From contig NZ_BBWV01000002.1 in assembly GCF_000974785.1 (NCBI RefSeq), forward strand, positions 806,001 to 870,000: DNA of 64,000 nucleotides, given 5' to 3'. Positions 16,720 to 21,344 of this stretch are shown piece by piece; position 1 is the first letter of the stretch, and each line of letters begins with the position of its first letter. This DNA comes from Flavihumibacter petaseus NBRC 106054. GTDB lineage: Bacteria > Bacteroidota > Bacteroidia > Chitinophagales > Chitinophagaceae. The notes below the pieces were generated by a model. It saw nothing but the letters and a program-made list of their open reading frames with translations. It was not told where the DNA came from and did no database searches. A program made the translations under genes and the position numbers.

Positions 16720-17952
16720 TTATTTCCCTACTTTCTTCTTCAGGTTCTCATCAATCGCATCCAGGAATTCCTGCGTGTACAGGAAATGTTCTCCATGCTT
16801 TACCTTATTGCCGTGCACACAAACCGCGAGGTCCTTCGTCATCTTGCCACTTTCCACCGTTTCGATACACACTGCCTCCAGGGCATTACAAAAATCAACC
16901 AGTGCCTGGTTGCCATCCAGTTTTCCCCTGAATGCCAATCCGCGTGTCCACGCAAAGATGGAAGCAATGGGGTTGGTGGAAGTAGGCTTACCCGCCTGGT
17001 GGTCACGGTAGTGACGGGTTACTGTACCATGCGCCGCTTCTGATTCCATCGTCTTGCCATCAGGCGTGATCAGTACAGAGGTCATCAGTCCCAGTGAGCC
17101 AAAGCCCTGTGCAACAGTGTCGCTCTGCACATCACCGTCATAGTTCTTACAGGCCCATACAAAGTTGCCGTTCCATTTCAGGGCACTGGCAACCATGTCA
17201 TCGATCAGGCGATGCTCATATACAATGCCTGCTGCTTCGAAGGCAGCTTTGAATTCAATGTCATAGATCTCCTGGAAGATATCCTTGAAACGGCCATCAT
17301 ATTTTTTGAGGATGGTGTTCTTGGTAGACAAATACAGGGGCCACTTTTTGCTGAGCGCCATATTGAAACAGCTGCGGGCAAAACCTTTGATACTCTCATC
17401 CGTGTTGTACATCGTGAGGGCAACACCGTCTCCCTTGAAATTGAAAACCTCAAATGTCTGTGGTTCACCACCATCTTCAGGCGTGAAGGTCATAGTCAGT
17501 TTTCCTTTTCCTTTGATCACAGTATCCGTGGCGCGGTACTGGTCGCCAAATGCATGACGGCCAACGATGATCGGGGCAGTCCAGTTGGTTACCAGGCGGG
17601 GAATATTATTGATCACGATCGGCTCGCGGAATACCGTTCCGTCGAGAATGTTCCGGATCGTTCCGTTGGGGCTTTTCCACATCTGCTTCAGCGAAAATTC
17701 TTTCACCCTTGCCTCATCAGGGGTGATGGTGGCGCATTTGATACCCACGCCATGTTCCTTGATGGCATTGGCAGCATCAATAGTAACCTGGTCATTGGTG
17801 GCATCCCTGTGCTCAATACCAAGGTCATAATATTTGATATCCAGTTCCAGGTAGGGTAGAATCAGTTTGTCTTTGATAAATTGCCAGATAATCCTCGTCA
17901 TTTCATCGCCATCCAGTTCCACGACCGGATTGGCTACTTTGATCTTGCTCAT
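16720..17952 (-). CDS. icd: NADP-dependent isocitrate dehydrogenase, eukaryote-like type
   Basis: Oxidatively decarboxylates isocitrate to 2-oxoglutarate in the TCA cycle. The 410-residue protein follows the homodimeric type II (eukaryote-like) NADP-IDH rather than the E. coli type: it begins [10 protein letters not shown] and contains [18 protein letters not shown] and Ala-Ala-His-Gly-Thr-Val. ATG 17952 is chosen over the more upstream ATG 18015, which lies before the promoter. The first seven bases of the coding sequence and the full promoter are part of a 75-bp direct repeat whose second copy is 3.3 kb upstream. Confidence 0.97.
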
Positions 17953-18020
17953 AGTCGGTTGATTTATAATGGAAGTCTGCAAACCTAAGCCAAATGGGGA
18001 AAAAAACAAATGCAAAATAA
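17946..18020. repeat. 75-bp direct repeat, copy 1 (icd promoter and start)
   Basis: Identical to 21270-21344 except for one base (G here, T there, in the C-rich tract of the promoter spacer). It spans the icd start codon and upstream promoter. Outside the 75 bases the flanks do not match. Confidence 0.97.
17980..18010 (-). promoter_or_regulatory. icd promoter (TTTG-N19-TAGGTTTG)
   Basis: On the minus strand TTTG (18007-18010) is followed after exactly 19 bases by TAGGTTTG (17980-17987), a complete match to the Bacteroidota -33/-7 consensus, 27 bases before the icd ATG. The spacer includes a T7 tract. Confidence 0.85.
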
Positions 18021-18052
18021 TTCGAATCCTTCCGCAGCGCAGCTTCCCGGAG

Positions 18053-19486
18053 TCAGCGATGCAGAAATACAGCCTTCCATGGTTCTTCCGCTGTATTGAG
18101 CCATACTGCGTCAGTGAGATTATACCGGATCATCGTTTCTTTTGCCGCTTCCATACTTAATCCGGAGGTAAAGCTTCGTTTTGAATAGTAGGAAACTGCG
18201 GGACTTATCTGTACATCAGAGAAAATGGCAACATCTGAAGGTATATGCTTTTTAATCCATGCCCCGGCTGTCATCTCCGCATTGTAGGATTCTCCCTTCC
18301 AGCTGAATGCACCCGGCCGGTTGATAAAAAAGTATATGGCGGCAGAAACCGGGATGCACAGGAACAATAACCACCGCAACTGTAATCGCCCCAACCGGGG
18401 CAGCAGATAGGTTGCAACTAACACGGTAGCTGCCAGCGCAAATCCCAGCCAGGCAAATTCATGTACTGCACTCCAATTGAAGAAGACAAGATTATAAAAC
18501 AAAACGGCAGATAATGCCCAGATCGGCCAGGTGGTAACAACCCCGTTTTTTACAATTGCCAAAAGAGCCGCGGGCAGCAACAGCAACAGCACGGGATAAC
18601 CGGAAACCAGATTTTTTGCTACCATACTTACCATACCCGTTAACGGGATATCGCCGGCACTTCTTTCCACGAAGCGGCTTTGCCAGTACTGCAATACCTG
18701 GTGCCAGCCAAGGTAATGAGCAAATTGAGCCAGTGGAATCATTATGCCGCAAAGAAGCGCCAGGATCGATACTGACAAAACGAGCCCATACCGCTTGTCG
18801 ATTCTTAATCGAAAGAGAGACCAGACAGCGAGGAAACCCAGCAAAAAGACTCCCAGCCAGTCAAAATAGCACAGGATGATTCCGATGAAAAATAAAGCAC
18901 TCAACGAGATGTACCCGACATTGGCAGGCCCCTTTTCCATCTGGAACCAGGTATAAAAAAACGCGATGACCATTGGCAGCATGATCGACGTATTGACGTA
19001 GCCGTTTCCACCATACCAAAGTATCGCCGGCAACAAGCCAAACAGGGTGCATGATACCAACGCGACAGGTTTGTTTCCGACGGTTTCCCTGATTAGCAGA
19101 TACAACATTGCAATAGTGAAAAGGCTGATGGCTATATTCAGTAATTGCAGCCAGATGGGCGTGAAGGGGAGTTTCAGCAGCGTGAAAATTGCATAGGGAA
19201 GTACATACCAGCCGGCACCAAATGATAAGTACACATGATTGTGCGCTGCATCTATATAAGGGCCTTCTTCAAATTTTTTATTGGCATCCCCCTGGTAATT
19301 CATCAGGGGAGTAAAGGAAAACTGTGAACCGCCACCTGCCTGTTTCCAACTTTCTGCGTTGATCAGTACAACGGCGGTATTGAATTCATGGTGCTTCGAA
19401 ACAGGACGGTTCAGACTCGGAAGTCGCAACACTACCATCGCTGCAAGTATGCACAACAGATAGTAGTTTCTCAATAAACCTGGCAT
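18053..19486 (-). CDS. Polytopic membrane protein, probable GT-C glycosyltransferase
   Basis: The 477-residue protein begins with a membrane helix followed by a long extracytoplasmic loop containing His-His-Glu-Phe (about 32-35), as in ArnT/PMT-like GT-C enzymes, whose catalytic acid sits in the first loop. About ten further membrane helices follow. A soluble C-terminal domain (about 395-477) contains [11 protein letters not shown]. Such proteins use polyprenyl-phosphate sugars on the periplasmic side, the product made by Dpm-like GT2 enzymes such as the neighbour 9 bases upstream. The pairing supports a lipid-linked sugar pathway, but the acceptor is unknown. Its stop is 33 bases from repeat copy 1. 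Confidence 0.7.
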
Positions 19487-19495
19487 CAGTTTTTA

Positions 19496-20650: not shown

Positions 20651-20674
20651 GTCAACAAATATAAGCGGGGAAAA

Positions 20675-21232
20675 TCAGCCCTCATGAGCTTTTTCGAAAA
20701 CGAACAGGTTGTTCAGTCCCAGTTGAAATTTCTTATGAAGTATTAAGGTGAATCCGGATTTTTTTGCGAGCGGTACCGTTTCGTCAGCATTAAAGCCGTA
20801 ATGCTCTTCAAGACGCATGCCTGCTATCAGCCTGAACCGTTTTAAGATTTCCAGGATACGGTCGACGGACGCATCCGGCACAGAAACGATCAGCTTTCCC
20901 TTTGGCAACAGTTTGGATGCACAGGCATCCAGGAATTCAGTTTGATTGCTTGCCGGAATATGTTCGATGATTGCCAGTGCAGTAATACAATGATAAAGTA
21001 TGTCACCCGGTGCAGCACCGGGAAAGTAACCCTTAATAAGGCAGATGTTATCGCTTAGTTTTTTATTGTCGCACAAAGGATCAATACCTGTACCTGAATC
21101 AATCAGACGCCGGAGTTTCCATAACAATTCCCCGTGGTGGCAACCTACATCCAGTAACCTGGCCTGAGCCGGAACATGGGGAATTGCCATGCCGATTCTT
21201 CTTTGTTGCAGGTATCGGTCGAGAAGGGTCAT
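20675..21232 (-). CDS. Class I SAM-dependent methyltransferase
   Basis: The 185-residue protein has the SAM motif Leu-Leu-Asp-Val-Gly-Cys-His-His-Gly-Glu-Leu (about 24-34), an acidic strand-2 end (Gly-Ile-Asp) and a post-motif Ile-Glu-His-Ile-Pro typical of methyltransferase 11/12-like enzymes. The frame is open back to 21355 through the 75-bp repeat, but the repeat carries the icd promoter there, so a start after the transcription start is needed. ATG 21232 is the first in frame, and its A-T-G-A overlaps the stop of a 15-codon frame that uses the copied icd start codon. The original 5' end may have been replaced on insertion. The substrate is unknown. Confidence 0.82.
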   Translation of the reverse strand: MTLLDRYLQQRRIGMAIPHVPAQARLLDVGCHHGELLWKLRRLIDSGTGIDPLCDNKKLSDNICLIKGYFPGAAPGDILYHCITALAIIEHIPASNQTEFLDACASKLLPKGKLIVSVPDASVDRILEILKRFRLIAGMRLEEHYGFNADETVPLAKKSGFTLILHKKFQLGLNNLFVFEKAHEG

Positions 21233-21276
21233 AAAATCAGCCTGGTACTTTTGCAGAAAAAGATCAACCTGCTCAT
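21229..21276 (-). CDS. Putative 15-codon leader frame from the duplicated icd start codon
   Basis: The icd ATG copied in repeat 2 opens a frame of 15 codons (Met-Ser-Arg-Leu-Ile-Phe-Phe-Cys...) that ends in TGA overlapping the methyltransferase ATG as ATGA. This is the layout of translational coupling. It is probably a by-product of the duplication rather than a functional peptide. Confidence 0.4.
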   Translation of the reverse strand: MSRLIFFCKSTRLIL

Positions 21277-21344
21277 AGTCGGTTGATTTATAATGGAAGT
21301 CTGCAAACCTAAGCCAAATGGTGAAAAAAACAAATGCAAAATAA
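21270..21344. repeat. 75-bp direct repeat, copy 2
   Basis: Second copy of 17946-18020 with one mismatch. It lies between the cassette's first gene and the Crp-like gene and brings the icd promoter and start codon in front of the methyltransferase. Confidence 0.97.
21304..21334 (-). promoter_or_regulatory. Duplicated icd promoter in front of the glycan cassette
   Basis: The same TTTG (21331-21334), 19-base spacer and TAGGTTTG (21304-21311) as the icd promoter. The single base difference between copies falls in the spacer, so the promoter should work and read into the methyltransferase operon. Confidence 0.75.

Follow-up and report, generated by a model that had tools for sequence, protein, structure and literature searches.

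The window analysed here is a stretch of 64,000 nucleotides from Flavihumibacter petaseus NBRC 106054 (contig NZ_BBWV01000002.1, positions 806,001–870,000). Read from left to right, the locus consists of icd (minus strand), the first copy of a direct repeat, three minus-strand genes, the second copy of the repeat, two Crp-like genes on the plus strand and an Nramp–Usp fusion. Its features are as follows.

16720–17952, minus strand: icd, NADP-dependent isocitrate dehydrogenase (Iso_dh; TIGR00127 and NF006156 above their cut-offs), intact
17946–18020, unstranded: direct repeat copy 1, with the first seven bases of icd (ATGAGCA), the 5′ leader and TTTG-N19-TAGGTTTG; serves icd
18021–21269, unstranded: inserted segment of 3249 bases, missing from congeners
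18053–19486, minus strand: polytopic membrane protein of 477 residues, GT-C-like by anatomy only, eight hydrophobic segments
19496–20650, minus strand: GT2 glycosyltransferase (Glycos_transf_2) with C-terminal hydrophobic segments, four in all
20675–21232, minus strand: SAM-dependent methyltransferase (Methyltransf_23), start ATG at 21230–21232 from homologue alignments
21229–21276, minus strand: possible 15-codon leader beginning at the duplicated icd ATG, with a TGA that overlaps the methyltransferase ATG (ATGA)
21270–21344, unstranded: direct repeat copy 2, repeating the icd promoter and start region ahead of the operon
21389–21970, plus strand: Crp-like gene 1 (crp1; cNMP_binding just under cut-off), start codon uncertain, ancestral neighbour of icd
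21972–22613, plus strand: Crp-like gene 2 (cNMP_binding)

The two copies of the repeat are 75 bases long and agree at 74 positions, the single mismatch being GGGG in copy 1 and GGTG in copy 2, so that the initial annotation was exact in coordinates, length and mismatch. Its further description of the locus also holds: TTTG-N19-TAGGTTTG and the icd ATG are found in both copies, only the Methyltransf_23 protein, the GT2 enzyme and the polytopic protein are encoded between them, and icd remains a full Iso_dh gene that keeps its own promoter and start codon. At its two ends the insert extends just 37 and 32 bases beyond intact genes. Searching the whole assembly (5,687,994 bases, 22 contigs) at the DNA level located the repeat at two places only, which rules out the dispersed repeat family that the initial annotation had named as grounds for refutation. 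A direct-repeat scan (at least 40 nt, at least 88% identity, copies at most 20 kb apart) of 464 kb sampled from the window's contig (8% of the assembly) gave four pairs, among which the icd-promoter repeat is the only one with copies more than 1 kb apart; of the others, one is formed by two tRNA-Val genes, one is of low complexity and one lies within a DUF5907-type gene, and no further cassette bounded by long repeats was found in this sample. A low-complexity intergenic pair of 69 nt (L113:2933–3138) is 96% identical and rich in CGCTAAAGCT-like units, and a repeat-rich protein of 1735 residues with DUF5907 repeats (11036–16243 in the window) includes a 53-nt direct repeat pair.

A repeat extending beyond 75 bases, past 18020, was considered and not adopted. 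The motif CCTTCC follows copy 2 immediately and occurs again seven bases inside the insert. In an extension test with five congeners and two flanks each, the Crp-side flank exceeded every one of 300 shuffles for L009, and for L006 the cassette-side flank exceeded all but nine of 300; the other eight of the ten comparisons were unremarkable.

Upstream of icd, TAGGTTTG is conserved in all 13 aligned congeners and is also present in G010, a congener outside the alignment. TTTG stands at a spacing of 19 in 12 of the 13, the exception (L014) having ATTG at a spacing of 20. The Bacteroidetes promoter consensus is given as TTTG/TANNTTTG in PMC6847099, which also reports that in the −7 element of F. 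johnsoniae G is virtually absent at two middle positions. Both copies of the repeat have GG at these positions, atypical relative to F. johnsoniae as there described, so that the case for a promoter is built on conservation and spacing. The window contains three sites that fit TTTG-N19-TANNTTTG where 0.27 are expected (none of 100 shuffles reached three), two of them being the repeat copies; TAGGTTTG alone is less striking (four against 1.78 expected). The third TTTG-N19-TAGGTTTG site (7351–7381, plus strand) has the same atypical GG and lies upstream of an open reading frame at 8436. Scans for E. coli-type promoters (eight found, 6.6 expected) and for terminators (six found, 4.1 expected) were near chance; on the minus strand, no terminator-like site separates the final gene of the operon from copy 1. 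The resident promoter is present twice, once at icd and once at the foreign genes; this anatomy fits an operon under a housekeeping promoter, and copy 2 would then drive its transcription.

The methyltransferase reading frame as listed (226 residues) extends back through copy 2. Alignments with homologues start exactly at Met 42 of this frame at 24 of 41 loci and within residues 38–45 at 33 of them, and the start is therefore likely to be the ATG at 21230–21232, inside the insert and 37 bases in from copy 2. The overlap between the leader TGA and this ATG could allow translational coupling, and a chance origin is plausible.

A simple Kyte–Doolittle count gives four hydrophobic segments for the GT2 enzyme and eight for the polytopic protein. 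The polytopic protein matched no Pfam, NCBIfam or PDB profile, and the best NCBIfam match of the GT2 enzyme is of the AglJ type, far under the cut-off. Judging from the GT2 type, the cassette may make or modify a lipid-linked sugar. None of the three insert genes is a transposase or an integrase, and neither family occurs among the 26 window proteins scanned (between 71 and 39300), in keeping with the initial annotation. The locus does not have the marks of a transposon insertion: besides lacking a transposase, the insert has no terminal inverted repeats at 18021/21269 (none of 16 inverted pairs, minimum 14 nt, joins its ends), and a target duplication of 75 bases is too long for the short transposon type. 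Transposon target duplications measure about 2–15 bases.

The site was compared with that in other species, namely 14 congeners and seven same-family genomes. A search with crp1 against the genome itself and 58 relatives matched 46 of the 59, and among the matches listed there were 30 loci, one of them the window's own. At 20 of these (13 congeners and seven same-family genomes) icd lay within the fetched stretch; the remaining nine are other Crp-like matches with no icd in the stretch. At every one of these 20, icd adjoins crp1 in divergent orientation, the promoter region is single and the cassette is missing, the distance between matched ends being 111–175 bases in congeners and 139–383 in the seven same-family genomes. 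The initial annotation had proposed looking for icd next to the Crp-like gene with one copy and no cassette; this was found in 13 of 14 congeners and in the seven same-family genomes, and none of the 14 congeners carries the cassette. In the 14th, G010, the fetched stretch contains no Crp-like gene, an Nramp gene adjoins icd and the cassette is again missing; this congener appears to have lost its Crp pair. In the corresponding locus (L127, G010:C62), homology to the window stops at about 1470–1570, at the same edge of the promoter region. The Nramp-type transporter of the window (22614–24497) is fused to a universal stress protein domain and adjoins the Crp genes in several relatives.

A DNA search found the icd upstream region exactly once in each of the 14 congeners, and when the window flanks are joined across one repeat copy the region aligns with congeners, 13 of which share 52–63 of the 75 bases of the repeat. 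The icd protein is 94–95% identical in most congeners and 91% identical in G008. In the genus, icd commonly stands next to a Crp-like gene with one promoter region, and these single-promoter, cassette-free relatives support the suggestion of the initial annotation that the locus arose by insertion with an unusually long target duplication.

The cassette itself has a scattered distribution. The GT-C-like gene has no match in 35 relatives of the genus and family (21 of them same-family genomes); distant homologues (27–31% identity) occur in six of 23 same-order genomes, and three of these six loci, inspected over 12–13 kb each, are without a methyltransferase or GT2 of the cassette type. A first scan of genome contigs with this protein gave 20 pattern matches, none of which was confirmed. 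Weak generic matches to the methyltransferase appear in 13 of 58 relatives (best E value 1.2e-8), and only one of 394 other genomes of the phylum passes an E value of 1e-12; in this genome (G281) the methyltransferase adjoins a GT2 (44% identity) and a 433-residue protein that matches no Pfam family. Scanning genome contigs with a profile located the methyltransferase at 41 loci, with titles from Bacteroidota, Verrucomicrobiota and others. A GT2 is adjacent at no fewer than 23 of these (14 with GT2 then methyltransferase, five convergent and four in the order of the window), and at least 14 of the 23 have a reading frame of 350 or more residues with seven or more hydrophobic segments within 400 bases; these neighbour counts are minima because some loci reach contig ends. 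These counts suggest a set of glycan genes that recurs patchily across long distances. The homologues, together with the promoter type, point to the Bacteroidota. The G+C content of the insert, 46.7% compared with 50.4% for the window, is a mild shift; 11 of 244 segments of the same size, some of them overlapping the insert, are as low.

Since the site is uninterrupted in relatives, the cassette genes are largely unmatched there and the methyltransferase–GT2 pair is found in distant bacteria, we read the locus as a horizontally acquired operon inserted in this lineage with duplication of a 75-base target; of the insertion with duplication, apart from the mechanism, we are highly confident. An assembly error, or an old cassette that relatives have lost, is in our view highly improbable. 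Repeats near the word length of an assembler can mislead, but both junctions lie deep in a 1.2-Mb contig and the copies differ internally, while an old cassette would need to have been lost in 14 congeners and to account for the GT-C-like gene being unmatched in 21 same-family genomes too.

Carriage on mobile DNA was tried as an explanation, and no plasmid, phage or viral-contig match was found for the parts searched. The methyltransferase has no match in plasmids or phages, its profile matched the pattern in 70 stretches of viral contigs with none confirmed, the GT-C-like protein has no match in plasmids, and the repeat core (27 exact bases) has none in viral contigs. These results bear on two alternatives. 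The first is that a site-specific integrative element left the segment behind or brought it along, the copies being attL and attR, the recombinase having been lost or supplied in trans, and an att site spanning the 5′ end of icd having restored the gene. Long direct repeats that restore both neighbours are typical of att sites, and icd in E. coli is the att site of e14-type prophages, but at its 3′ end. The locus does have a flanking direct repeat that restores the target, and so compact an insert suits a cassette; we nevertheless consider this origin unlikely, given that no integrase is encoded by the three insert genes or the 26 scanned window proteins, that the site is uninterrupted in the relatives examined, where it is accordingly no hot spot, and that no match was found to the repeat core in viral contigs or to the methyltransferase in plasmids, phages and viral contigs.

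The second alternative is a single crossover, in which homologous recombination at icd took in a circle that already bore the icd promoter region once. It would yield exactly the order icd, repeat, cassette, repeat, crp, and 75 bases are long enough for recombination. This route seems quite improbable to us: it shifts the problem back, in that the circle must first have captured the icd promoter of this very species (congeners share 52–63 of 75 bases), and no plasmid match was found.

For the insertion as a whole, we give about even weight to a fuller account in which the target was duplicated in the course of non-homologous end joining and the result was kept for expression of the operon. The foreign three-gene operon would have inserted once, into the short gap between icd and the divergent Crp-like gene, in the lineage of this species. 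A break at the icd promoter would have left ends staggered by about 75 bases; after fill-in, Ku and LigD would have sealed a stray fragment between them, unless an equivalent template switch led to the same outcome. The 75 target bases would thereby be left twice, icd keeping its promoter and ATG and copy 2 landing 37 bases upstream of the methyltransferase start, and selection would have retained an insertion that allowed the operon to be expressed without harm to icd.

Several observations bear on this account. Copy 2 derives from this species, since the copies are 74/75 alike while 13 congeners share 52–63 of the bases. At the mismatch position, compared by eye, seven of 13 congeners have the base of copy 1 and none has that of copy 2, which suggests that the change occurred in copy 2. 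The initial annotation called the event recent; the likeness of the copies, set against that to congeners, favours this in a relative sense only, and gene conversion could maintain it. The genome encodes Ku and an adjoining LigD primase–polymerase protein; elsewhere on the Ku contig lie two genes for ATP-dependent ligases, of which one occupies a 938-residue frame. According to PMC7719229, Bacteroidetes having non-homologous end joining carry the conventional form. A staggered break, fill-in and end joining would account for the anatomy with parts that the genome has, and these may have acted here. The junctions cannot reveal end joining, because the maximal repeat absorbs any microhomology. 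A stagger of 75 bases is long, which counts against end joining, and insert ends so near intact genes would rarely be expected of a random fragment.

A stepwise capture of the promoter may also be envisaged, in which silent foreign genes beside icd later gained a promoter copy by tandem duplication and deletion. Activation of horizontally transferred genes by tandem duplication is reported in E. coli (PMC11111574), but an extra, exact deletion would be required for the intact Crp-side flank and the window contains no second cassette fragment, and we regard this route as distinctly doubtful. More speculatively still, the duplicated promoter might act as a portable homology arm, making the locus a cassette that needs no recombinase and becomes active on landing at icd. 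Recombination between the copies might then free a circle of 3324 bases with one icd promoter, the empty site being left clean, and these circles, or fragments, might re-enter conspecific cells at icd through general recombination alone; we hold this reading to be very unlikely.

How imported genes come to be expressed in new hosts is an open question, addressed by selection experiments like those behind PMC11111574. Here a natural case offers both junctions, a doubled resident promoter and an uninterrupted site in relatives, making each step testable. If the account of insertion with target duplication is true, a long duplication at a housekeeping promoter allows foreign operons to be active on arrival while the host gene stays undamaged, and the locus is possibly a neat illustration from nature of imported genes becoming switched on. 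Among the titles and abstracts found in the open-library literature, none describes an operon inserted between two copies of a resident promoter.

Among known systems, the cassette resembles the methyltransferase–GT2–membrane protein loci of Bacteroidota, Verrucomicrobiota and others in having both families adjacent, with a methyltransferase of the same family (35–48% identity) and the same GT2 type; those loci vary in order and orientation, and the membrane protein of the window has no detectable homologue there. Like att-type genomic islands, it is accessory DNA lying between direct repeats through which the target gene is restored, but it has no integrase, no tRNA target (the window contains no tRNA genes), a length of 3.2 kb only and no occupied site in relatives. 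Promoter capture through duplication is already known: PMC11111574, citing Li and Bock 2019 and Anderson and Roth 1978, describes how it activates horizontally transferred genes. As in that system, a resident promoter has been copied ahead of foreign genes with the original retained; the duplications described there are tandem and laboratory-selected, whereas here a 75-base target flanks an insert in a natural genome.
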